A stretch of 28,499 nt of DNA from a virus. Location of the stretch: positions 649 to 29,147 of IMG/VR virus record IMGVR_UViG_3300002161_000014; one strand, written 5' to 3'. The notes under the pieces were generated by a model. It had not been told where the DNA came from and searched no databases. It was given only the letters and a program-made list of their open reading frames with translations. Below, piece by piece: positions 1 through 20,653 of the stretch. Within the stretch, counting starts at the first letter, position 1. Each line of letters starts with the position of its first letter. Both the position numbers and the translations under genes were made by a program.

Positions 1-882
1 CACCCTGCCGATATTTATGGTATCTTGCACTTCTTATATCCTAAAAAGTTTCCGAGTTATTGGCAATTTGCCGAACGTTATTTCAAAGTAGAAGAAAATT
101 TTATGGGTTACAATGAAGTTTTAGGTGCAAAACCACATAGAGTTGATGAATTGCAGAATATTGTAGGTATAATAAGTGTGCAGAGAAAAAGAAAAGACGT
201 GATGGAGTGGTTGCCTGATAAAGAGCGTGTGACCTTCTATTGTGAAATGAGTACGAAACAACGTAAAGCGTATGATGAAATGTTGCAATACTTCTTTGTA
301 GAAGACACAGACGTTGATGCAAGTACAGTTTTGTCACAGTTGATGCGATTAAGACAGTTGTGTTTAGAACCTGAATTACTTGGACTTGATACAGGTAGTG
401 GAAAGACTGATTCACTTCTTGATTATCTAAAAGAATCATCGAGCGAACCAACAGTTATTATGAGTATGTTTACAAGTTATTTGAAGTTTGCAAAACCTTT
501 AATTGAAAGTATTGGATTGCGTGTAGGTATGATACATGGTGAAATGACCAACAAAGAAAAGATGGAACAAGCCGAGAAGTTTCAACGTGGCGAGATTGAC
601 GTGCTACTATGTAATATTATTAGTGCAGGTACAGGCTTTACATTAGACCGAGCCGATACCATTATCTTTATGGACAAGGCGTGGAATCCTGCCGAGAATG
701 AACAAGCCGAAGACCGTATTACACCGACAACACAAGACAAGTTACACAAACACACGATTATTAGTTTCGTATGTCAGAACACCGTAGACGAGAAAATCAA
801 CACGCTTTTAGAAAACAAGAAGTCACTGACTGATATCGTCAACGAAGGTGGACTTAAAGCAATTAAAAAACTTTTAGGATAG
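1..882 (+). CDS. SNF2-family DNA helicase/translocase, C-terminal part (5' end outside window)
   Basis: The frame is open from base 1, so this is the C-terminal part (about 293 residues) of a longer protein; the TTG at 25 is internal, not the start. The visible piece is a RecA-like helicase C domain of superfamily 2. It has a lobe-2 entry segment with LMRLRQLCLEPELL, then TVIMSMFTSYLKF, GMIHGEMTNKEK, LLCNIISAGTGFTLDRADTIIFM (motif V region) and a motif VI position reading EQAEDRITPTTQDK. In the family such proteins use ATP to translocate on dsDNA and remodel protein-DNA complexes; in phages they sit with replication and recombination genes, as here. Motif VI is odd: the canonical second arginine and the GQ pair (DRxxRxGQ) are absent. 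The gene is followed by a promoter at 887-915, so it ends one transcription unit. Family assignment is firm; the specific role is inferred. Confidence 0.85.
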   Translation, partial: HPADIYGILHFLYPKKFPSYWQFAERYFKVEENFMGYNEVLGAKPHRVDELQNIVGIISVQRKRKDVMEWLPDKERVTFYCEMSTKQRKAYDEMLQYFFVEDTDVDASTVLSQLMRLRQLCLEPELLGLDTGSGKTDSLLDYLKESSSEPTVIMSMFTSYLKFAKPLIESIGLRVGMIHGEMTNKEKMEQAEKFQRGEIDVLLCNIISAGTGFTLDRADTIIFMDKAWNPAENEQAEDRITPTTQDKLHKHTIISFVCQNTVDEKINTLLENKKSLTDIVNEGGLKAIKKLLG

Positions 883-942: not shown

Positions 943-1245
943 ATGATGAACGGTAGAGAGATGTTGTTCATAACAAAGGTATTGGCGTGGCGTATGGAAA
1001 GTCCTGAAAACAGAACGGTATCAATTACGTTCGCAGATTATGGATTGTATGCTTACCTACATGGTAAACACAATGTTTGTGAAAGTGCGTGGTCACATAA
1101 CGAAGGCGAGTTTGAAGCAACGATTAAAAAAATTGAAGAAAGAGAGTGTGAAATTGAATGTCAGAGCGAAACATTAGAGGAAGCGAACTTAACGACTTCT
1201 TGCGATGCAGAACAAGATGGAATTACAGTTGGAACGAACGCTTAA
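943..1245 (+). CDS. Small protein of unknown function
   Basis: This is a 100-residue protein that I do not recognise. ATG 943 is chosen over the GTG at 937 because it lies 9 bases after the GGGGG ribosome binding site, whereas the GTG is only 3 bases away. The N-terminal two thirds look like a compact fold (ITKVLAWRM, TVSITFADYGLYAYLHGKHN). The tail after about residue 65 is Glu- and Cys-rich and overlaps the next gene by 88 bases in another frame. That overlap is unusually long for this genome, where overlaps are usually 4 to 23 bases, and leaves open a shorter ancestral gene or a late frameshift. It is the first gene after the 887-915 promoter. Its position suggests a role with the recombination genes, but nothing in the sequence identifies one. 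Confidence 0.6.
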   Translation: MMNGREMLFITKVLAWRMESPENRTVSITFADYGLYAYLHGKHNVCESAWSHNEGEFEATIKKIEERECEIECQSETLEEANLTTSCDAEQDGITVGTNA

Positions 1246-2108
1246 CACCGAAAACACCGAACAACAAATTATTCTTTGGTACATTGTTTCATAAGTACCT
1301 TGAAAGTTTTTACACAAATTTTAGTCAAGCACAGGCGTTAACGGATATGAAGAAACTGTTTGATGAAACAGACACGTCAGGCATGGAACAGTTTGAAATT
1401 GACGAGTTATATGGTTTGGCGTTCAGTGTAGCCGAGAATTATTTTGCACAATGGAAAAGCGAAGATTCAAAGTTTGAAGTGTTGGCAACGGAATTGCAGT
1501 TTGCAATTCCTTTGTCCGACAACCTAAACTACACAGGCACGATTGATTTAGTTGTCAAAGACGAACATGGTCAGGTTTGGTTCTATGACCACAAGACCAC
1601 CGCAAGTATTGAGATGTACGAAAAGAAAGCCGATATGGATAGACAGATTTCACGTTATTGGTGGGCGTTACAACAGTTAGGTTATGACGTTGCAGGTTTT
1701 GTCTACAACATTATCTTAAAAGAAGTGCCGAAGAAACCTGAACTACTCAAAAAAGGCGGTTTGTCACAGAACAAAGCACAGAAAACAACGCATGATTTGT
1801 ACCTACAAGCGATTCAAGAGAATGGTCTAAACGTACACGATTATGCAGAGATGCTTGACCACTTAAAAGCACAAGGCAACCGATATTTTAGACGACTGAA
1901 AGTTACACGTTTACAACCTGAAATTGATGCGTCAATCGAAGAACTCAAAATCGTTACGCAGGATATGGACAATGCACGTATCTACCGTAACATTACAAAA
2001 GACTGTTCGTGGGATTGTGCTTATCAGTCCGTATGTCAAGCAAGTCTTGACGGTAGCAACGTTGATTATCTTATCAACCAACTATACAACAAAAAGGAGA
2101 ATGTATGA
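1158..2108 (+). CDS. Cas4/RecB-like PD-(D/E)XK exonuclease with Fe-S cluster
   Basis: This 316-residue protein matches the Cas4/AddB-like branch of the PD-(D/E)XK nucleases. The visible active site is H45 (GTLFHKYLE), D130 (TGTIDLVV), D144 and K146 (WFYDHKTT) and Q163 (RQISRYWW). Four cysteines are placed as in the 4Fe-4S members of the family: C17 (FLRCRTRW) at the N terminus and C283, C287, C293 (CSWDCAYQSVC) near the C terminus. Such enzymes resect DNA ends to give single strands for recombination, and the next two genes encode a Sak4-like ATPase and a DUF669 protein that fit that pathway. ATG 1158 has only a weak upstream AGAGAG, and the conserved N-terminal cysteine requires a start at or close to it. 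The gene overlaps the next one as ATGA. The nuclease class is confident; substrate polarity cannot be told. Confidence 0.85.
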   Translation: MSERNIRGSELNDFLRCRTRWNYSWNERLTPKTPNNKLFFGTLFHKYLESFYTNFSQAQALTDMKKLFDETDTSGMEQFEIDELYGLAFSVAENYFAQWKSEDSKFEVLATELQFAIPLSDNLNYTGTIDLVVKDEHGQVWFYDHKTTASIEMYEKKADMDRQISRYWWALQQLGYDVAGFVYNIILKEVPKKPELLKKGGLSQNKAQKTTHDLYLQAIQENGLNVHDYAEMLDHLKAQGNRYFRRLKVTRLQPEIDASIEELKIVTQDMDNARIYRNITKDCSWDCAYQSVCQASLDGSNVDYLINQLYNKKENV

Positions 2109-2869
2109 TGCTAAAAATTACTAAACCTGCCGAAGTACGTGAGGGTTTTCATGGCTTACTGTACGGTAAGCCTAAAACAGGCAAAACGAGTACCGCAGAC
2201 GACCCGAAACTGAAAGTGTTGATTGCAGACCTGGAAGGTGGTACAGCAGTTTTATCCGATGCAAAGAATGTAGACCGAGTGGCGATTACAACGTTTGAAG
2301 AATTTAAGGAATTTACCGATATTGTTCAGCGTGGTTTCTTTGAGAAGCAAGGTGATTTCAAATACGACCTTATCTTTATCGACAGTATCAGCCGATTGCA
2401 AGAGTTAGTCAAAGAGTATGTTGCCAAGTCCTATGCACCTAACCGTAAGCGTGAGATTAGCGGTAAATTTGGTGCTATGGCGGATTGGGGCGACCTGCGT
2501 GACATTATGTTGTCAGCAGTCAAAGCGTGGCACTCAATCACAAAACGTGGCGAAAAATCGTTTCACGTGATGTGGATTGCACACGAAGGTGTTGTGAAAG
2601 ATGAAATGACCGAACAGGCGATTGCCACCAAGATTCAGTTACAAGGTAAAGATACTGCCGATATTGTTATGGCACACGTTGACGGTATTTTCTATATGTT
2701 CAACAAGGTAAACGATGAAGGTGTTCTGCAACGTGGCGTGTTGACTACAAATCATGGTATCTACCAGGCAGGTGTTCGTCAGTCCAAGCATAAGCAACCA
2801 CTACCTGCGGTTATTCTAAATCCTGTTTGGTCAGAAGTTTTCAATCAGTTGGGGTATAAAAGGGGGTGA
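2105..2869 (+). CDS. Sak4-like RecA-fold recombination ATPase (AAA_24 type)
   Basis: The 254-residue protein is a P-loop ATPase with Walker A GKPKTGKTS at residues 21-29 and Walker B DLIFIDSISR ending in D93-S94. The short size, the early P-loop and the phage context match the Sak4/AAA_24 group of RecA-like single-strand-annealing ATPases. Those proteins work with a phage ssDNA-binding protein to promote strand annealing or exchange. The neighbours support this: a Fe-S nuclease lies directly upstream (ATGA overlap at 2105-2108) and a DUF669-type protein lies two genes downstream. The start is either ATG 2105 or the adjacent ATG 2108; the AAGGAGA at 2094-2100 is 4 or 7 bases away. A general nucleotide-binding role is certain from the motif; the Sak4 label is a family inference. 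Confidence 0.8.
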   Translation: MMLKITKPAEVREGFHGLLYGKPKTGKTSTADDPKLKVLIADLEGGTAVLSDAKNVDRVAITTFEEFKEFTDIVQRGFFEKQGDFKYDLIFIDSISRLQELVKEYVAKSYAPNRKREISGKFGAMADWGDLRDIMLSAVKAWHSITKRGEKSFHVMWIAHEGVVKDEMTEQAIATKIQLQGKDTADIVMAHVDGIFYMFNKVNDEGVLQRGVLTTNHGIYQAGVRQSKHKQPLPAVILNPVWSEVFNQLGYKRG

Positions 2870-3317: not shown

Positions 3318-3815
3318 ATGGGATTTTTAACAGTTAATCACAAAGAAGCAGAAGGCACTAACACAGGGTTTACACCGATTCCCGAAGGCGAGTACGAAGC
3401 AATCATTAGCGAAGCGAAAATTGGTAAGTCCAAAACGTCAGGCAACGATATGATTACACTCACGTTGACTATTCGTGACGATGTTCAACAACAGTATGGC
3501 AAACGTAAATTATGGGATTACCTTGTGGACACTGATAAAGCGAAGTTCAAATTTCAGCAAATTGCAAAAGCGTTACAGTTCCCCGAAGGTACAAAAGTTG
3601 ACACTATCCACGACTTCCAAAAAGCAATTCAGTTTGCAAGTATTCGTATCGTTGTGAAAAATCGTGAAGAAGAATACGAAGGTGAAAAGAAAGTGCGTGA
3701 CTTTGTGGCGACTTATAAAGCACCACAAGCACCTGCAAGAGCAGTAGCACAAGCAGACCCTTTCCAAACACCACCAACACCACAAGCAAATAAGAGTAAC
3801 GATTTTCCGTTGTAA
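3318..3815 (+). CDS. DUF669-like putative ssDNA-binding protein
   Basis: The 165-residue protein opens with a short linker and then IPEGEYEAIISEAKIGKSKT, followed by MITLTLTIRDD and LWDYLVDTDKAKFKFQQIAKAL. That order and spacing are typical of the phage DUF669 family. Members are found beside annealases and Sak-type ATPases and are thought to bind single-stranded DNA. The C terminus after about residue 135 is a flexible Pro/Ala/Gln-rich segment ending in SNDFPL, which resembles the acidic-hydrophobic tip of bacterial SSB. It is preceded by its own promoter and a strong AAAAAGGAGA site. The family label is fairly confident; ssDNA binding and the SSB-tip function are inference from resemblance and context. 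Confidence 0.75.
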   Translation: MGFLTVNHKEAEGTNTGFTPIPEGEYEAIISEAKIGKSKTSGNDMITLTLTIRDDVQQQYGKRKLWDYLVDTDKAKFKFQQIAKALQFPEGTKVDTIHDFQKAIQFASIRIVVKNREEEYEGEKKVRDFVATYKAPQAPARAVAQADPFQTPPTPQANKSNDFPL

Positions 3816-3875: not shown

Positions 3876-3901
3876 GCTATCAGAAGGGTGTGGGTTGACT
3901 T

Positions 3902-6715
3902 GTGTTTGAGAAAATATTTCCTAATATCAGCGTAAAACCGAACGGTGAATGTGATATACTATGCCCATTTCCTCACGATAAGGGTTATGATACAAGACCG
4001 TCAGCACATATAAATATAAACAAACGTGTGTTCCACTGTAAGACGTGCCAAGCAGAAGGTAGGTTTGAGAGCGGTGGATTGTCCGAGATTGGATTTATTG
4101 CCGAGTATTATGGTGTTACCTACGAACAGGCAGTTAAGTTGATACAGACGCTTGAAAAGTCCGAAGACGATGTGCAGTTTGAACAATGGCAAGAAGCCGA
4201 GAAGTTGTTACACAACAACATTGAACTGATGGACTATCTAAAAAGTCGTGGTGTTGAAGAAGCGACAATACAAGAGTACCGATTAGCCTACGGTGGCGAT
4301 GGTATTATGTACCCGATTACATTGTACGGTGAGTTGTGCGATGTTCGCACATACGTTCCGAACGGTCAGCCTAAAATGCGGTCAAGAAAAGGTGCGTCAG
4401 CATTACTCTTTCCGTTTGACCATTGGCTACATGATGAACGAGATACGTTACTTTGTGCAGGTGAAAACGATGCACTATTAGCACGTCAGTTGGGATTCAA
4501 TGCTTTAACTGTGACCGCAGGTGAAGGCAATTTCCCAAAAGTGTTTGTTAATTTGTTTTCAGGTAGAAAAGTTGCTATTTGTTATGATTGCGATGAAGCA
4601 GGTAAGAAGGGTGCAAGAACCGTTGCGTTCCTATTGAAAGAAGCAGGTGCAGACGTTTCTCTTGTTGATTTGGGTTTAGAAGGTACGAAAGAAAGCAAAG
4701 ACCTTACTGACTACATTATTAAGCATAACCACAATGCAAACGATTTATACCAAAAGATTCAAGAAGCAGTAGCGTATAACGAAGATTTATTCAAAGAAGA
4801 CAAAAATGTTGTGTACCCGATTATCAATCTATGGGATATTCCCGAAGGTAGATATGCAGGAAAGCGAGTGTCAGCACGAGTGTTGTTGTCAGGTAAATAC
4901 GATTCACCGATGCAAACACCTACCGCTATCGAATGGGAATGTAACAATCCACATCTTACGTCAGACCGTTCACCTTGTATGACGTGTCCATTTGCTAACC
5001 AAAAAGGTTGGTGGACATTGGAAGAAAACCTAAAAGATGTGATGGAGTTGGTAGACGTAAATGAAACTCAACAAGATAAAGCAGTCAACAAGTTTATTGG
5101 ACTACCGCAGAAGTGTCCAGGTGTACGCAAGGTTATCAAGGCACGAAAACCTGTTTACAAAGTGGTTTTCACGCCCGATGTGCCGAGCGAAGAAACAGAA
5201 GAATACAGAGCAGTAGAGCAGTATGCGTATACAGTTGGATTGAATCTACAAGACGGTGAGAGATACCGAGCGTTCTTCAAACCGTATGCACACCCTCTTG
5301 ATGGTCAACGTGTGTTTATGATAGTTGATAGAGTTGAAGAAAGTGACAATGCTATCAATGCGTTTGAAATGACTGACGAGATTGCGGAGAGTTTGAAAGT
5401 GTTTCAAGGAAACCCATTTATAAAAATGGCAGAACGAGCCGAGCAACACCATAACTTCACCAAGATATTTAAGCCGAATCCGATGATAGCGAACGCTGTG
5501 GACTTGATGTACCACTCACCACTACGATTCAAATTTAATGGTCGTGAAATGAAAGGTTATCCTGAAATATTGATTGTAGGTGAATCGAGAACAGGTAAAA
5601 CTGAAACCGCTCTTATGTTCCAACGATATGTAGGTATTGGTAACTTCATGGCGTTAAAAGGTGCTACTACCGCAGGGATTTTAGGCGGTGCAGATAAACT
5701 AACGACAGGTGGATTTAAGATAAATTGGGGTACTGTTCCACGCAATCATAAAGGTTTGGTCGTGTTAGACGAGTTGAGCGGTATGTCACGAGATGTGATG
5801 GCAAGTTTGACTGCTATGCGTTCCGAGCGTATGGCAACGGTGCATAAGATAGCGAAAGGTAAAGCACCTGCCGAAACAAGGTTATTATGGTGTAGCAACC
5901 CACGAGTAAATTCAAACGGTCAGTCGGTGAATATCAAGGACTATCCAACAGGCGTACACGTTATGTTAGATTTGATTGGTAGTGACGAAGATATTGCACG
6001 TTTCGACTTGTGTATGCTTGTTGTGAAAGAACACGATTCGTCACCATTAGACGAACCGACAGTTAAAGCCTACGAACCTGATATGTACGCAAACTTAATT
6101 AAGTGGGTGTGGACACGTACAAGCGAACAGATTGTGTTTGCAGAAGGTGTTGAAGAATACATTATACAGGTGGCGAGTGAACTAAATGAAAAGTATGATA
6201 CGGATATTAAATTATTTGGTGCGGAAGCATGGAAGAAAGTTGCGAGAGTTGCCACCGCTTGTGCAGGTGCTACTTTTAGTTGCAGTAGTGACTACAAACG
6301 TATTGTTGTTACAAAAGACCATGTGGATTGGGCAAGTCGTTTTCTTTCTAACAATTACAACAACAACGTATTTCGTTTGGTTGACTACGTTACCGAACGA
6401 AGAAGTTACAACGAAACGAACGAAGCGGTAAATACAGTGGTTGCAAGTATTTGTCGTACAAATCCTATGGTTGTTAAGACGTTATTAAGTAGCGTGTCGC
6501 CTGTTCCAACAGGAAACTTGATGGCAGTATCAGGGTTAGAGCGAAGTCCGTTTAATGATGTAGTCAATAAATTATCATCTAACTTTTTAGTGACAGTCAA
6601 TGCGAATGGGTTGATGGCAACAAGACGGTTACGGTTGGCGGTTGACGCATACCGAACTGATTACAAGAATACAAAACTAATACCATTATCACAACAAGGG
6701 AGTGTAGGTGTGTGA
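3902..6715 (+). CDS. DnaG-type primase fused to an MCM-like AAA+ helicase
   Basis: This 937-residue protein joins several replication domains. An N-terminal CHC2-type zinc finger has C21, H25, C46 and C49. A TOPRIM domain follows with E188 (GENDALL) and D229/D231 (YDCDEAGKKGA). A middle region (about 310-410) has four cysteines, C347, C359, C362 and C405, in a place suggesting an OB-fold or zinc module. The AAA+ domain has Walker A GESRTGKT (560-567), Walker B VVLDELSGM with D623/E624, a sensor-1 asparagine in LLWCSNPR (N666) and IARFDL (699-703). This last matches the MCM arginine-finger motif SRFDL. It should prime and unwind DNA for the phage polymerase. GTG 3902 is the only in-frame start because a TGA lies just upstream; its ribosome binding site (AAGGG, 3884-3888) is distant. 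The next gene overlaps as GTGA. Domain calls are confident; the MCM label rests on the motifs. Confidence 0.85.
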   Translation: MFEKIFPNISVKPNGECDILCPFPHDKGYDTRPSAHININKRVFHCKTCQAEGRFESGGLSEIGFIAEYYGVTYEQAVKLIQTLEKSEDDVQFEQWQEAEKLLHNNIELMDYLKSRGVEEATIQEYRLAYGGDGIMYPITLYGELCDVRTYVPNGQPKMRSRKGASALLFPFDHWLHDERDTLLCAGENDALLARQLGFNALTVTAGEGNFPKVFVNLFSGRKVAICYDCDEAGKKGARTVAFLLKEAGADVSLVDLGLEGTKESKDLTDYIIKHNHNANDLYQKIQEAVAYNEDLFKEDKNVVYPIINLWDIPEGRYAGKRVSARVLLSGKYDSPMQTPTAIEWECNNPHLTSDRSPCMTCPFANQKGWWTLEENLKDVMELVDVNETQQDKAVNKFIGLPQKCPGVRKVIKARKPVYKVVFTPDVPSEETEEYRAVEQYAYTVGLNLQDGERYRAFFKPYAHPLDGQRVFMIVDRVEESDNAINAFEMTDEIAESLKVFQGNPFIKMAERAEQHHNFTKIFKPNPMIANAVDLMYHSPLRFKFNGREMKGYPEILIVGESRTGKTETALMFQRYVGIGNFMALKGATTAGILGGADKLTTGGFKINWGTVPRNHKGLVVLDELSGMSRDVMASLTAMRSERMATVHKIAKGKAPAETRLLWCSNPRVNSNGQSVNIKDYPTGVHVMLDLIGSDEDIARFDLCMLVVKEHDSSPLDEPTVKAYEPDMYANLIKWVWTRTSEQIVFAEGVEEYIIQVASELNEKYDTDIKLFGAEAWKKVARVATACAGATFSCSSDYKRIVVTKDHVDWASRFLSNNYNNNVFRLVDYVTERRSYNETNEAVNTVVASICRTNPMVVKTLLSSVSPVPTGNLMAVSGLERSPFNDVVNKLSSNFLVTVNANGLMATRRLRLAVDAYRTDYKNTKLIPLSQQGSVGV

Positions 6716-6969
6716 GTATGCGAGATTTATTAGCCGAGTACGATGAAGATATTTTATGTGCCGATGGTTTTGACGAAGCGATTATTGGAGTTGTTCACGT
6801 AGGCAGTAATACTATTGCACTATACGACATGGAAAAATGTATTGAAATACTTATGCGTGATGATATGAATTACGAAGAAGCATACGAGTTTTTTATATAC
6901 AATGTGTTAGGTTCGTATGTTGGTGAAAAAACACCTGCGTTTGCAGAATTTATTGAAAAGGAAGTGTAG
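6712..6969 (+). CDS. Small acidic phage protein of unknown function
   Basis: The 85-residue acidic protein begins MSMRDLLAEYDEDILCADGF and has no domain that I can name. GTG 6712 overlaps the primase stop as GTGA and lies 9 bases after AAGGGAG; ATG 6718 is a possible alternative. The sequence is made of alternating short helices and strands with a single hydrophobic stretch (AIIGVVHVGSNTIALYDM), so it looks soluble and folded. It lies between primase-helicase and dUTPase in one tightly packed unit, so a minor role in replication is plausible but unproven. Confidence 0.65.
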   Translation: MSMRDLLAEYDEDILCADGFDEAIIGVVHVGSNTIALYDMEKCIEILMRDDMNYEEAYEFFIYNVLGSYVGEKTPAFAEFIEKEV

Positions 6970-7402: not shown

Positions 7403-7551
7403 TATTCAAAATTGTAAACCTGGTTGCCAACGTTGGAACGTGGGTTATTGTAGTTCTAAATCTAATTACTGTATTGCAGACAAAGAAAATGCTTGAACAA
7501 AGGAAGTGTGAGTGTGCAGATAACGATAGCGAACGAAACCCATTGGATTGA
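7399..7551 (+). CDS. Small single-span membrane protein (50 residues)
   Basis: ATG 7399 overlaps the dUTPase stop as ATGA, the coupling used elsewhere in this block, and the frame runs 50 codons to TGA 7549-7551. Residues 5-27 form one hydrophobic segment (IVNLVANVGTWVIVVLNLIT) followed by a basic stretch (QTKKM), giving a typical inner-membrane helix with a positive cytoplasmic side. The tail contains CEC. Its last 38 bases overlap the start of the polymerase gene in another frame, and the polymerase ribosome binding site lies within it. I do not recognise a family. A membrane anchor for replication or a small toxin-like or superinfection-exclusion protein are guesses; its reality rests on coupling and the clean membrane helix. 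Confidence 0.55.
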   Translation: MIFKIVNLVANVGTWVIVVLNLITVLQTKKMLEQRKCECADNDSERNPLD

Positions 7552-9517
7552 ATATACTGAAAATGCAGAAGTGATTACAAATAAGTTGTTCTTGCATAAA
7601 CCTGACTACATTACGTTCGACACCGAAACTGATGGACTTCATATTAAGAAGGCAAGACCGTTCCTATGTGCAATAGCGTGGGAGTGCCAGGTATTCGTAT
7701 TCCCACCTACCATTTTATCGGAGTTAGTGAATTGGTCACAGATGGTCAATCGTGTTTATGCACACAACACAACATACGATATGCACATGATGGCTAACGT
7801 GTGTGGTGATGATGCACCATTAAAGGTTCGAGCGTGGGGCGATACGATGGGATTGTGTCGCCTGATATTTGAAGCAGTATCAGCAGGTGATGGTGGCGAT
7901 AGTCTTGCTCTTAAACAGATTGGTAAAAAGTATATTGATGCTACGTCAGACCGCTATGAGAAAGACGTTAAGGCGTGGCTAAAAGCAAAAGAAGCACAGG
8001 ACAAGAAAATCCTGATTGCGATGTTACGTGCAGTTGGTTGGTCACTTGCAAGATTACAACGAGCATTAGACGGTGCAGAAGAAGTACCTTGCGATGTTAT
8101 TGATATGTATAATGCGTTTCAACGTGAATACCCAAAACCGACTTATAAAGACGTTCCGATGGATATTATGCTACCTTACCTGGCTGTTGACGTGATTTTA
8201 ACCAATATTTTAGTTCATAAGGCAAGACCGATTATCAATAACAAAGAACAGAATGAAGTTGCAAAACGTGAGTTTCGTTTAATACCTGTTGTATACAAAA
8301 TGGAACGTGTCGGACTTGAAGTAGACCGAGATTATCTAAACGAAGCACATTATAAAATGTCACAGTACATTGAAGACTTACGAATTAAATCACATCAGTT
8401 AGCAGGTCGAGAGTTTAACGTAGGGCAACACGCACTTATTAAGGACATCTATACGGACATAACAGGCGAACGCCCTGAAACAACTGATAAAAAGTTTTTA
8501 TCGAAACAAGCGTCAAACGGTGACGAGTTAGCCAAAATCATTAAGACGTTACGCAGATTGGAAAAGTGGCAGTCTACTTACATTGAAAAGATACTCAATG
8601 ATTCAGAGTATGATGGTCGTTTCTACACACAAATGAACGCATACAATACTGTAACAGGCAGATTTAGTGGCGATGCACAACAGTTTCCGAAAGATGCGAT
8701 TGTAGATGAGTTAGGAAACGAGATATTTAACCCACGTAGAGCGTTCAAAGGGCGTGTGTACTACCTTGACTACTCACAGGTCGAGTTACGTGTTCAAGCA
8801 CATTACACCATGTATTTTGGCGGTGATTTGAACCTATGCCGAGCGTATATGCCTTTCAAATGTTACGAGAAAGATGGTGTGTGGTATACCGAAGAATCAC
8901 ATCAAGAATGGACACCAACTGACGTTCATTCAGCCACCACAATCAAAGCACTTGAAGCGATGGGTATTGACTACAAGACGCTTGACGAAAAAGAGTTTAA
9001 GCGTTGGCGTAACATTGGCAAGATGTTCAACTTTATGCGTAACTATGGTGGCGGTGATAAGAAAGCGTCAGAAGTGTTAGATATTGATATGGAACAAGCA
9101 AAAGCACTTAATCAAGGTTACACGAACGCATTTCCGTTAGTTATCGAGTACCAACGAGCAGTTGAACGAGCGTTGTACGATAAGACGTACACCAAGAACC
9201 TTTATGGTCGCAGATATTATCTTTCAGATTCGTGGCGATTTTATAAAGCGGCTAACTATGTGATACAAGGTTCGTGTGCAGATATGCTTAAAATGAAAAT
9301 GATTGAGATTGACGATTTCCTTGTGAGCAACAAACTAAAAAGCAAGTTGGTCTTATGTGTACATGATGAATTGCAGTTTAACGTAACACCTGATGAAGAT
9401 TGGATAATACCTAAAATCAAAGCAATTATGGAAGATACGCCTGACGTAAAAGTACCTATTGTTTGTGAAGTAGAATTTACCGAAACCTATTGGAGTGACA
9501 AGAAAAGTTTGGTATAA
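7514..9517 (+). CDS. Family A DNA polymerase with 3'-5' exonuclease
   Basis: The protein has about 667 residues. The proofreading exonuclease comes first: ExoI ITFDTETDG (D36, E38), ExoII VYAHNTTYDMH, and ExoIII YLAVDVILT. The polymerase domain has motif A YLDYSQVELR (D419), motif B R499-xxx-K503-xxx-F507-xxx-Y511 (RNIGKMFNFMRNY) and motif C VHDE (616-619). There is no 5'-3' nuclease domain, as in T7-type replicative polymerases. A Phe, not Tyr, sits in the helix-O position that sets dideoxynucleotide discrimination. GTG 7514 is preferred, 8 bases after AAAGGAAG; TTG 7493 and GTG 7508 are poorer starts. It overlaps the small membrane-protein gene and is the likely replicative polymerase, working with the primase-MCM protein. 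An extended -10 promoter overlaps its stop codon. Confidence 0.93.
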   Translation: MQITIANETHWIEYTENAEVITNKLFLHKPDYITFDTETDGLHIKKARPFLCAIAWECQVFVFPPTILSELVNWSQMVNRVYAHNTTYDMHMMANVCGDDAPLKVRAWGDTMGLCRLIFEAVSAGDGGDSLALKQIGKKYIDATSDRYEKDVKAWLKAKEAQDKKILIAMLRAVGWSLARLQRALDGAEEVPCDVIDMYNAFQREYPKPTYKDVPMDIMLPYLAVDVILTNILVHKARPIINNKEQNEVAKREFRLIPVVYKMERVGLEVDRDYLNEAHYKMSQYIEDLRIKSHQLAGREFNVGQHALIKDIYTDITGERPETTDKKFLSKQASNGDELAKIIKTLRRLEKWQSTYIEKILNDSEYDGRFYTQMNAYNTVTGRFSGDAQQFPKDAIVDELGNEIFNPRRAFKGRVYYLDYSQVELRVQAHYTMYFGGDLNLCRAYMPFKCYEKDGVWYTEESHQEWTPTDVHSATTIKALEAMGIDYKTLDEKEFKRWRNIGKMFNFMRNYGGGDKKASEVLDIDMEQAKALNQGYTNAFPLVIEYQRAVERALYDKTYTKNLYGRRYYLSDSWRFYKAANYVIQGSCADMLKMKMIEIDDFLVSNKLKSKLVLCVHDELQFNVTPDEDWIIPKIKAIMEDTPDVKVPIVCEVEFTETYWSDKKSLV

Positions 9518-16537: not shown

Positions 16538-19500
16538 TTATTCAAATTTTTTGAAGGGGTTTTTTGAACTCTTGCTACTACTTTGTTTCTTTTGAGTAGG
16601 GTATTCAGTTTTGTTTTTAACGTCTTCAATGTTTCTTGAACGACCCATCAACAAGTCTTGAATATTATCAAATAGATTTTTGCTATCTTTTTCGTTAGTC
16701 ATTCCTTCATAACCGCTTAAAAATCTTGAACCTACGCCTGTCTGTCCTGTTAAGTATCTTGCAAGATATTCAGGATTGTCGAAGTAACTATCAGCATTTC
16801 CATAATATTTATTGTAATCTATTGGTTTTCCTGTATAAAGTTGATGGTTTGCAAGAAGTTCAAATGGCGACCTAACAAACGGAGAAGTCATACTTGCCGC
16901 TTTTCTTGGGTCTGTAAGAACTGCTAAATCTTGAATTGGTAGGCGTGGGTTGTAAAGTTCATCACCAAGTTTTAGAAACTCGCCTTTAAGATAACCTGGA
17001 ATTGCCGAATCGTCTTGTAAATCTTGTGTAGATTGGTCTTTTAGTTTTTCGTAAGTTGCCATGTATTTTGGACTTTTTAACGCTTTTTCGACTTGAAGCG
17101 GAATGTTATTTTTAGTCCAATTCCAAAACGGTACAAACGCTCGAACTGCTCTATCTGCCGAAGTTAATTCTTGATAATTAAACAAGTGTTTGCGAACAGA
17201 ATCAGCCGCCATTTTTGTGTTTTTGGTTTTGGCTAAAACATCTAAATAATGTGCGGTTCTAAAAAAGTTGTCCATCACATCACTTGTGGCTCTACCTGCA
17301 CGAACATAACCGCCATAAGCCTGTAAAGGAAGTGTAGCACCTTTTGGAACAAAACGAGCGTCTTGTATTTTTTTGATTGTGTCTTTATTACCTTGTGCTA
17401 AATTTTCAGCACCACGTAAAGCACGAGTAAAGATACCTGAATCATCTGCTCGATTGTCTGCCTTTGCAAACGAACTTTCCAACATATCTGAATAAGAGGT
17501 TTGGTTGAGAACACCTTTATCTAACATATCGCTTATAATTTTTTCTTGCTGTTTAGTTAGTTTTCCTGACTTTCTTGCGTTTAGCAAGTCGTAGGCTTCT
17601 CTGTAAGAACTTGCACCAACACCTGCCATTGTGTTGTTTGTTACAAGTCCGACAAAGTTGTACCAATAGTGAGAAGGAACAACGGTTGTTGTTAAAGTTT
17701 TGAAGACGTTGTTTGCGGCTTCTACGTTACGCAACACTTTTTCTATACCTTTATCAGTAAACACGTCTTTAACTCTTTCAAGACCGTCTAAAACTTCACG
17801 ATGAACCATTGTGCCTTCTGCTAAACCTAACGCTCTTGCTTCGTCTTTATTTAACTCTTTATAGTAATCTCGTTTAGAAGTTGCTGTGTATTTTGGAACA
17901 TCTTTTCCTTTTGCAATAATATAACCGTTTTTTGTCAAAGTTCCTTGTAAATCACGCATAGCGTTTGATTTAATAGATTTGTAGTAACGTTTTGTAAGTG
18001 CGGTAAAAGGGTCACGCTCGTATAAATTTGAAACAACATCAATTTTATTTTGTAACTCGTCAAATTCTTTTGAGTTAGCAGGAAACTTCGTTTGTTGTTC
18101 TTGTAATACCGCCAACGCATTATCAACCTGTGCCATTGTCTGATAAGATTTACGCTCTTTTGCAAACTGATTACTTTTAGATTTTGTAATCAAAGCACCG
18201 ATTTCAGGGTCGTCACGATAAGCCGCTTCTAATTCATCAAGTTCTTGGTCAGTTCTATTAACAACGTGTGGGAAATAATTTGCTCTTGAAGCATATGCGT
18301 TTCCTGACGCTTCATCAGCACGTTTAATCTCTTTTGCAACTCTACTCATATTTTGTGCTACACCTTCGATTTGCTCTGCTTTTTTCAAAACATTTCGGAG
18401 TTCTGTTTCTATAAGTGTATAACCTTGTGCAAAATCATCAACAAACTCGTCTACTGAAAGTTTGTTTGGTGATTTGTCTGAAACGTATTCTGCTATTCTT
18501 TTAATTTCTTCGTTAGTTAAACTACCATCAGCACCGTTAGCAATTCGCAAAATTGATTCTTTGAAAGAAAGTTTGTTTGAACCTTTTATTTTGGAGATTT
18601 CATTGGTCAAATCTTCAATCTGTTGTTTCATTTGAGCGGCTTTTTGAACATTTACTTGTGATTTAGAGTTTTTAATCCTATTGTATTGCTCTTTTATTTG
18701 TTTAAGATTTACTCTTAAATCTAAAACTTTTTGAGCAATAGGACTGTCTAACAACTCGTCAGGGAAGTCTTTTTGAACAACGTAGATAATATCTCTAATC
18801 TCTTTATCACTCAAACCTTTTGCTTGTTGCTTAACAGTTACCATCATTCGTTCCATCTCACGTCTGCGACCTACAACTTTATTGTTAGCATCAACAATTT
18901 CATCACCCATATTATTTACATTCTGCTCTTGTGAACGTAGTGTACGAGCGTTAAAGATATTGCGAGATAGTTTTGAACGTAGAGCAGACGTTCCACCTGC
19001 ATCGGCTACAAATTTACTTGTGTCAGCACCTATTGTTGTTGCTTTTGACGTTGGGGTTACGTATCTTGTATATTGGTTGAAATCTACACTGTTCTTCAAA
19101 TCATCAATTCGTTTTTGAACTACGCTGTTAATTGCTTTTCCTTTATTTTTACCGCTACCTGTCACATTTTTACTAACAAACTCTAAAAAGTTTTTGTCCA
19201 AACCTTTTGGCAACATACCTTTATTTGTTTCAACAATGTTAAGGTAGTGGTCTAACTCGTCTAACATTTTTCGTGTTTCTTTTGGAATACCTTTTACGCT
19301 AAAATCACGCAAAAATTTTGAAGAATATCCGTCAAGTTGTTTTGCTACATCAAACGTAGGTTTACCTGTTACTGCATCATTCATAGATTCTAAAACTTTT
19401 GAATCAGGTAAACTTCTTGTTTGAATATTAGAAGTTCTTTGCAACAAGTCTTGAAACTCTTGTGTCGTCAGTTGGCTTTCTGATTTTCCATAACTTTTTT

Positions 19501-20653
19501 GAAGAAAATCATCTTTTCTTTTACTGATTTCTTCTGTGATTTTCTTTATTTCGTTTTTGTAACCTGTTGGTTTTGCTTCTGAAAGTTGTTTAATTTTGTT
19601 TGCTTCTTCTACTGACGTAAACGCTTGTTGAAGCATCTCCGTAGCGGCAGTTGCTTCTTTTGCACCAATAGGTAAATCACGATAAACCAAACCTGACCAT
19701 TCGGGTTTTTTGAAAATAGACCCTTCAAATTTAGTAAAAGGAATGTTCCAATTTAACAGAGAGTTTTGCCCTTCTACTCGACTTCCTTTTACCGCATCAT
19801 CAATTTGTTTTCCATACGTTCGTTGAACTAAATCTCTGTTAAGCGGAGTTGTAGCCGCCTTAAAATCTCGAAGTGCTTGGGTATTCTCGCTAATTAAATT
19901 GTCGTAGTACGAAGCGTCAATTTCATCAAACGCTTTACCTGCTTGTAGTTCACCCTTTACAAAAGCACTTTTTTCTCTTTGTAAACGATTTAAGTTGTCA
20001 ACAACATCATCTTGTGTTTTTAACACATCACCAAACTCGTCAATAACGTCAAGTTTTGCAGTATCATCTACTGTCTTTTGAGCAATATCATCAAGAAGTT
20101 TGTCGATGGCTTTGTTTTGTCCTTTTACAGTAACGGATTTACCTAACTTAACCGCTTTACCTGCAATTTTTTCAGTTGCGTCTTCTGCTACATTTTTTGC
20201 CACCCCACGAACTACACCACCGACACCGCTTTTAACAAGACCCCCTACCCCTGTATAAGTAAGGGGGTCAAAAACTACGTTGCCTAAAAAACTTGTAATA
20301 TCAAACAAGTCAGGTGCATACCAAGAGTTACCTTTGCGACCTTTTAACCAATTATAGTTACCGCCTTCTTGTGCTTGATTCCAACCAAGATTGTTTAGAA
20401 TGTCGTCAAAATCTTTCTTTTCTGTGCCTGATATACCGCCCTTCAATCCTTGCCAACCTGTTGTACTTGCATCACCGTCTGTCCAATTTGCTATTGCACC
20501 TGTGACTGCACGTTGAGGGCGAGAAATATAATCAAGAGCGTCTAAATACCAGGGTTGGTCGTATTCTTCGACTTGTTTTTTTTCTTCTTTTTCCTTTTTA
20601 CTTTGCATGGCTTTAACATAAGCGTTTGCAAAACTTCTGTAATCTGTTGACAT
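16538..20653 (-). CDS. Giant internal virion / DNA-ejection protein candidate (1371 residues)
   Basis: This is the largest gene in the window. ATG 20653 follows GGGCGGTGAG. The N terminus is charged, then residues about 115-180 are hydrophobic and glycine-rich (DITSFLGNVVFDPLTYTGVG, SGVGGVVRGVAKNVAED). The middle (about 200-1000) is long, helical and coiled-coil-like with many Lys/Glu/Gln. A later segment around 1060-1290 has VVPSHYWYNFVGLVTNNTMAG, AYGGYVRAGRATSDVMDNFF and AFVPFWNWTKNNIPLQVEKA, which resemble the C-terminal part of large polyvalent phage proteins. Size and place after the nozzle and fibre genes match T7 gp16-like ejection proteins, but no lytic transglycosylase domain is visible. 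The family label is inference; the virion role is likely. Confidence 0.65.
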   Translation of the reverse strand: MSTDYRSFANAYVKAMQSKKEKEEKKQVEEYDQPWYLDALDYISRPQRAVTGAIANWTDGDASTTGWQGLKGGISGTEKKDFDDILNNLGWNQAQEGGNYNWLKGRKGNSWYAPDLFDITSFLGNVVFDPLTYTGVGGLVKSGVGGVVRGVAKNVAEDATEKIAGKAVKLGKSVTVKGQNKAIDKLLDDIAQKTVDDTAKLDVIDEFGDVLKTQDDVVDNLNRLQREKSAFVKGELQAGKAFDEIDASYYDNLISENTQALRDFKAATTPLNRDLVQRTYGKQIDDAVKGSRVEGQNSLLNWNIPFTKFEGSIFKKPEWSGLVYRDLPIGAKEATAATEMLQQAFTSVEEANKIKQLSEAKPTGYKNEIKKITEEISKRKDDFLQKSYGKSESQLTTQEFQDLLQRTSNIQTRSLPDSKVLESMNDAVTGKPTFDVAKQLDGYSSKFLRDFSVKGIPKETRKMLDELDHYLNIVETNKGMLPKGLDKNFLEFVSKNVTGSGKNKGKAINSVVQKRIDDLKNSVDFNQYTRYVTPTSKATTIGADTSKFVADAGGTSALRSKLSRNIFNARTLRSQEQNVNNMGDEIVDANNKVVGRRREMERMMVTVKQQAKGLSDKEIRDIIYVVQKDFPDELLDSPIAQKVLDLRVNLKQIKEQYNRIKNSKSQVNVQKAAQMKQQIEDLTNEISKIKGSNKLSFKESILRIANGADGSLTNEEIKRIAEYVSDKSPNKLSVDEFVDDFAQGYTLIETELRNVLKKAEQIEGVAQNMSRVAKEIKRADEASGNAYASRANYFPHVVNRTDQELDELEAAYRDDPEIGALITKSKSNQFAKERKSYQTMAQVDNALAVLQEQQTKFPANSKEFDELQNKIDVVSNLYERDPFTALTKRYYKSIKSNAMRDLQGTLTKNGYIIAKGKDVPKYTATSKRDYYKELNKDEARALGLAEGTMVHREVLDGLERVKDVFTDKGIEKVLRNVEAANNVFKTLTTTVVPSHYWYNFVGLVTNNTMAGVGASSYREAYDLLNARKSGKLTKQQEKIISDMLDKGVLNQTSYSDMLESSFAKADNRADDSGIFTRALRGAENLAQGNKDTIKKIQDARFVPKGATLPLQAYGGYVRAGRATSDVMDNFFRTAHYLDVLAKTKNTKMAADSVRKHLFNYQELTSADRAVRAFVPFWNWTKNNIPLQVEKALKSPKYMATYEKLKDQSTQDLQDDSAIPGYLKGEFLKLGDELYNPRLPIQDLAVLTDPRKAASMTSPFVRSPFELLANHQLYTGKPIDYNKYYGNADSYFDNPEYLARYLTGQTGVGSRFLSGYEGMTNEKDSKNLFDNIQDLLMGRSRNIEDVKNKTEYPTQKKQSSSKSSKNPFKKFE

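Follow-up and report, generated by a model that had tools for sequence, protein, structure and literature searches.

The window, the whole stretch of 28,499 nucleotides analysed here, belongs to a virus record of 36.4 kb, and the hosts of the virus are bacteria. The gene under study starts with GTG and encodes 937 amino acids in a single unbroken frame, in which a CHC2 zinc ribbon is followed by a DnaG-type TOPRIM primase core, an MCM N-terminal domain with four cysteines, an MCM AAA+ motor and a winged-helix-like C-terminus (Table 1). The original prediction had described one frame of this length carrying C21, H25, C46 and C49, then E188, D229 and D231, and finally an IARFDL motif; every one of these residues was found at its position, with IARFDL at residues 698-703. 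The ORF is not a chance reading frame, because it is kept whole in the close IMG/VR relatives L002, L003 and L004 (82, 78 and 79% amino acid identity, respectively), because every domain with unsaturated dS has a dN/dS of ~0.05-0.17, and because the Pfam matches to CHC2, Toprim_2 and MCM all lie above their cut-offs. Judged from these substitution ratios, all domains of the primase-helicase are under purifying selection.

Table 1. Positions in the window of the primase-helicase gene, its parts and the surrounding replication genes
Feature	Position	Strand	Evidence
SF2/SNF2-type helicase, C-terminal part (replication/recombination cassette)	25..882	+	PF00271 1.8e-16, PF00176 9.9e-9
PD-(D/E)XK exonuclease	1158..2108	+	PF12705 1.5e-23; phrog_1218 4.3e-59
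Sak4-like ssDNA annealing ATPase	2105..2869	+	phrog_124 7.8e-37
Single-strand DNA binding protein	3318..3815	+	phrog_378 5.8e-26
AGAAGGGTGTGGG, rich in purines, candidate ribosome-binding site 5' of the GTG start	3882..3894	+	sequence reading only
Primase-helicase gene, CHC2 - TOPRIM primase core - MCM N-terminal domain - MCM AAA+ - winged-helix-like C-terminus	3902..6715	+	Pfam, predicted structure, family alignment
CHC2 zinc ribbon, residues 20-82, ligands C21 H25 C46 C49	3959..4147	+	Pfam PF01807 1.2e-5
DnaG-type RNA polymerase core, residues ~100-290, basic residues R149 and K158	4199..4771	+	family profile vs 2au3, 1nui
TOPRIM subdomain, residues 185-271, catalytic E188, D229, D231	4454..4714	+	Pfam PF13155 (Toprim_2) 2.2e-5
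MCM N-terminal domain, OB-like, likely metal site C347 C359 C362 C405, residues ~300-525	4799..5476	+	region folded alone, fold comparison
MCM AAA+ motor, residues ~528-835	5483..6406	+	Pfam MCM, archaeal MCM profile, structure, conservation
Winged-helix-like C-terminal segment, residues ~840-920	6419..6661	+	predicted secondary structure
Family A DNA polymerase	7493..9517	+	PF00476 2.2e-55

Within the window the cassette runs in the order SF2 helicase, exonuclease, Sak4, SSB, primase-helicase and PolA, and the arrangement is similar in other phages. The end of the primase-helicase gene is overlapped by a small ORF (6712-6969, plus strand) that matches phrog_13182, a family of unknown function (7.5e-29); L002 carries a DNA cytosine methyltransferase-like ORF in its place. 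Near the virion genes of the window lies an ORF of 1371 amino acids (16538-20653, minus strand) with no PHROG or Pfam match. In two related loci (L008:11015-14664 and L009:9066-12229) the primase-MCM gene is directly followed by queuosine/7-deazaguanine genes (QueC, 6-carboxytetrahydropterin synthase and GTP cyclohydrolase), which suggests that the DNA of these phages is modified.

Conservation was counted over 53 full-length family proteins from the IMG/VR set, the window protein included. Both the CHC2 zinc finger and the TOPRIM domain that had been claimed for the N-terminal half were recovered by Pfam above the cut-off, with matches in 40/53 and 46/53 family proteins, respectively. The CHC2 ligands are kept in 48-52 of the 53 proteins, and the TOPRIM metal residues in all (E188 and D229) or in 52 of them (D231). 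The DNAG_N match of the window protein was weak (0.059); a profile of the 53 proteins searched against the PDB matched the DNA primase 2au3 (3.1e-28), other DnaG cores and, at 9e-10, the T7-type primase/helicase 1nui. The RNA polymerase N-subdomain is present with its conserved basic residues (R149 in 50/53, K158 in 53/53), and both 2au3 and 1nui aligned over that part. These are residues that a working TOPRIM primase would be expected to retain, and primer synthesis is predicted from the sequence. The zinc ligands of CHC2 are partly lost or replaced in L035, L046, L053, L056 and L071, in which the TOPRIM residues stay. In the contig of the window protein and in eight further phage genomes, CHC2 matches were confined to the primase-helicase gene.

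The four cysteines noted originally in the middle of the protein are present, but the region is not a separate part; it is the MCM N-terminal domain. A sequence-profile search of this region against the PDB returned nothing usable, and the likeness to MCM was seen by fold comparison only. When modelled alone from 65 sequences the region reached a pLDDT of 84.5, and among the PDB folds listed as matches 50 of 50 were MCMs, including the isolated N-domains 6wnz and 1ltl. The cysteines are kept in 46-49 of the 53 family proteins and are likely the metal site of the MCM N-tier. Most of them are lost in one clade (L015, L016, L017 and L025; also L005), so that the presumed metal site is dispensable there. 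Since some relatives lack the ligands of the CHC2 ribbon or of the middle region, neither metal site is needed everywhere.

The AAA+ module that follows is present as foreseen, but it extends over the span given in Table 1 and not over residues 540-760. Its parts comprise Walker A K566, Walker B D623 and E624, sensor-1 N666, arginine finger R700 and a probable sensor-2 R782. K566, N666 and R700 occur in 53/53 family proteins, the invariance of the Walker A motif being partly selected because the IMG/VR set was gathered with a Walker A pattern; E624 occurs in 52/53, and R782 in 46/53 with lysine in the other 7. At the pre-sensor-1 hairpin, K649 is found in 46/53 and arginine in 4/53. The best Pfam match of the ATPase was MCM (2.5e-8, residues 528-713), followed by Mg_chelatase (3.1e-4), and the two models matched 49/53 and 9/53 family proteins, respectively. 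The same MCM model exceeded its cut-off in 14/14 control genomes, including those of E. coli and B. subtilis, which to our knowledge lack an MCM, so that a Pfam MCM match alone is not decisive and was dropped as sole proof. The IARFDL motif had been read as an MCM arginine finger, and its R700 is indeed invariant, but the motif alone is weak evidence because helix-2-insert AAA+ proteins at large share RFD-like motifs and because the Pfam MCM model lacks specificity.

The structure was predicted with AlphaFold2 on the 53-sequence alignment. The model of the whole chain had a mean pLDDT of 84.7 and a pTM of 0.63, so that it does not show reliably where the primase lies with respect to the ring. 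Among the PDB folds listed as matches to this model 50 of 50 were MCMs, with fold-alignment identities of ~10-16%; the expectation of MCM as the top match was thus borne out by both Pfam and structure. The two inserts that had been anticipated alongside it can also be discerned in the model: a hairpin after the Walker A helix (595-609, strands 595-599/605-609) is read as the helix-2 insert, and a hairpin before sensor 1 (644-656, strands 644-648/652-656) as the pre-sensor-1 insert. The family profile searched against the PDB matched the archaeal MCM 3f9v (3.1e-15, profile positions 549-795), with numerous MCM2-7 chains ranking after it, and among the matches listed (60 chains) there were only MCMs and primases. 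The C-terminal segment, modelled with helices at 870-877 and 881-893 and strands at 897-900 and 903-906, would correspond to the MCM winged helix. According to the predicted structure, which decides here over Pfam, a complete MCM with both tiers sits behind the primase.

A different placement would make the ATPase a member of a sister helix-2-insert AAA+ family (Mg-chelatase/ComM, MoxR or BrxL-like) that owes its MCM label to shared motifs only, as the second-ranking Mg_chelatase match and the response of the MCM model in genomes lacking an MCM might suggest. However, the MCM score is far better than that of Mg_chelatase, the PDB chains listed for the family profile are MCMs and primases only, and the region before the motor folds by itself as an MCM N-terminal domain, which we know of in no Mg-chelatase or MoxR protein. 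We therefore find this placement scarcely credible. On the scores and the MCM N-domain fold, Mg-chelatase/MoxR and SF3 were rejected as the family of the ATPase (Pfam gave no SF3 family match in the window protein), and a RecA/DnaB placement was rejected because no DnaB_C match was found in the window protein, its own contig or eight related phages.

A tblastn search against cultured and other deposited phages returned 68 records, 45 of them with at least 80% query coverage, and an alignment-guided scan of IMG/VR gave at least 80 loci. Relatives include the Paenibacillus larvae phages API480 and SV21 (32%), Microbacterium krampusviruses, Bacillus BSTP/BSP7, Weizmannia Youna2 and, at lower coverage, Arthrobacter Wollypog. 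Homologues with the same domain order had been proposed as the next thing to look for, and the order is kept in 53 complete proteins. The original prediction regarded a TOPRIM primase on an MCM-like motor as a different solution to the problem solved by known phage primase-helicases; the pairing itself stands, but it is common in cultured phages and not peculiar to this contig. In GenBank the relatives are labelled DNA primase or primase/helicase, with the MCM part unnamed. Two names from the L009 and L010 records are misleading, since Youna2 UKM63140.1 ('DNA primase small subunit') and UOF80042.1 ('DNA directed DNA polymerase') are both CHC2-TOPRIM-MCM proteins.

Variant architectures were also seen. 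At L073:5908-9429 and L097:5974-9627 (also in L123 and L124) the gene is split into a TOPRIM-MCM-N ORF and a following AAA+ ORF, with two small ORFs between them. The break separates the MCM N-tier from the AAA+ motor and resembles a fission of the gene that perhaps happened twice; a known catalytic intron as its cause in L073 and L097 was rejected, there being no Rfam match. MCM proteins of ~720 amino acids that lack the primase are encoded at L063:4808-7902 and L064:4940-7968, directly 3' of a Pam3 gp34-like gene. L064 retains a TOPRIM remnant of 55 amino acids, and no TOPRIM was found elsewhere in these two contigs, which are possibly fragments.

The same MCM module also occurs behind an unrelated primase. 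In Bacillus phage vB_BboS-125 (L012; AYP68415.1) and in a clade of viral contigs it follows an archaeo-eukaryotic (AEP) primase (PF01896 and PF04104); besides L012, 13 other non-redundant rows show this arrangement. The AEP-MCM proteins belong to phrog_18685, which the window protein matches at positions 384-1006 (E 1.3e-41); the match begins at profile position 384, and the window protein has no PF01896 match. A quick tree built from the AAA+ region kept the 14 AEP rows and 70 TOPRIM rows largely apart, and constraining the AEP rows to one clade was not rejected (p-AU 0.67), so that one swap is enough and multiple independent swaps are unsupported. Both versions are found among the same kinds of gene, namely an SF2 helicase, often an exonuclease, a Sak4/RecA-like protein and SSB, and then PolA; in the actinophages DnaE takes the place of PolA.

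This exchange bears on whether the TOPRIM half still acts as a primase. It might instead merely bind DNA or polymerase, as could be supposed from the relatives whose zinc ribbon ligands are gone and from animal Twinkle, whose primase domain is known to have lost activity (PMC3610141). Such a loss is very unlikely here, given that E188, D229 and K158 are invariant and D231 nearly so, and that a whole clade bears an AEP primase where the TOPRIM half would be, as expected if priming is the needed function.

No DnaB-type helicase (DnaB_C) was found in the window protein's own contig or in eight other phage genomes, and for this reason the primase-MCM is probably the replicative helicase of the phage. 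The contig is possibly a fragment, and a second helicase of this virus may lie beyond it. The simplest reading is that one protein serves as both fork helicase and primase. We consider it likely that the phage codes here for a replicative primase-helicase of its own, in which an MCM ring would move 3'-5' on the leading strand with its N-tier first and a tethered DnaG-type primase would prime the lagging strand. The protein might otherwise be an origin-opening initiator or a restart helicase that makes the first primers and leaves elongation to the DnaB of the host, which is always at the phage's disposal; for the AAA+ Rep/Cch helicases found in satellites and SCC elements, a role as initiator helicase is known or has been proposed (PMC7581432). 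This division of labour seems unlikely, since a primase on each subunit of the ring fits repeated lagging-strand priming and the same cassette holds the phage's own polymerase and SSB.

The MCM rings that unwind DNA in archaea and eukaryotes travel along the leading-strand template in the 3'-5' direction, N-tier first. According to the model of a replicative primase-helicase, six copies of the phage protein would assemble into an MCM-type ring around the leading-strand template and translocate 3' to 5', the N-tier leading. The zinc ribbon and TOPRIM core tethered to the N-terminus of every subunit would hold the primase on the side of the ring that leads, at the point of exit of the excluded lagging-strand template; there the primase would lay RNA primers, to be extended by the phage polymerase (family A here). 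In the eukaryotic (yeast, human) replisome, Pol alpha-primase binds CMG at its leading edge and lies over the channel between the MCM zinc-finger domains where the lagging-strand template exits (PMC10501992). By analogy we infer a primase-at-front geometry for the phage protein, the primase facing the same way as Pol alpha-primase because it is fused to the MCM N-terminus. On balance we favour the fuller picture, in which an MCM ring running 3'-5' carries a bacterial-type primase at its front (N-tier), this primase primes the excluded strand in the phage replisome, and two unrelated primase folds have been exchanged on one motor. Such an arrangement would invert that of T7 gp4 and would have converged on that of Pol alpha-primase on CMG.

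Bacterial MCMs of phages and plasmids have been described alongside AEP primases (Kazlauskas et al, 2018; PMC5862659), and no description of a TOPRIM-MCM fusion was found in the literature searched, which did not cover the 2016 survey by Kazlauskas et al. Motor and primase each come from a known family, in a pairing not found described, widespread yet under-annotated: numerous phages from several host groups, cultured ones among them, have a bacterial DnaG-type primase joined to a complete MCM. With unrelated primases on one motor, the family lets one ask what priming on an MCM ring needs, a position on the N-tier or a specific interface, and a primase-MCM in one chain would be a simpler model than CMG with Pol alpha-primase.

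The D5/SF3-type primase-helicases and the SCC/SaPI Cch/Rep helicases are likewise AAA+ helicases of mobile elements with a primase fused or adjacent, and both DnaG- and AEP-type primases occur with them (PMC7581432; PMC10061031). They differ in belonging to another AAA+ clade (SF3/D5), or in being MCM-like without a fused TOPRIM primase. The Bacillus-type AEP-MCM known from phages and prophages (phrog_18685, vB_BboS-125) shares the MCM N-tier, AAA+ motor and C-terminus and the place between SF2 helicase and PolA, whereas its N-terminal primase is of the PF01896 and PF04104 type and that of the window protein is CHC2-TOPRIM. With T7 gp4 and Twinkle, the window protein has in common a single chain in which an N-terminal CHC2-TOPRIM primase precedes a C-terminal ring motor. 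Their motor, however, is of the RecA-type SF4 class and runs 5'-3' on the lagging strand, in contrast to an AAA+ MCM that has no DnaB_C match and would be expected to run 3'-5' on the leading strand. Finally, archaeal MCM and eukaryotic MCM2-7 share the N-terminal tier, an AAA+ motor with helix-2 and pre-sensor-1 inserts and a winged-helix-like end, and differ from the window protein in that it alone has a bacterial-type primase covalently joined to the motor.
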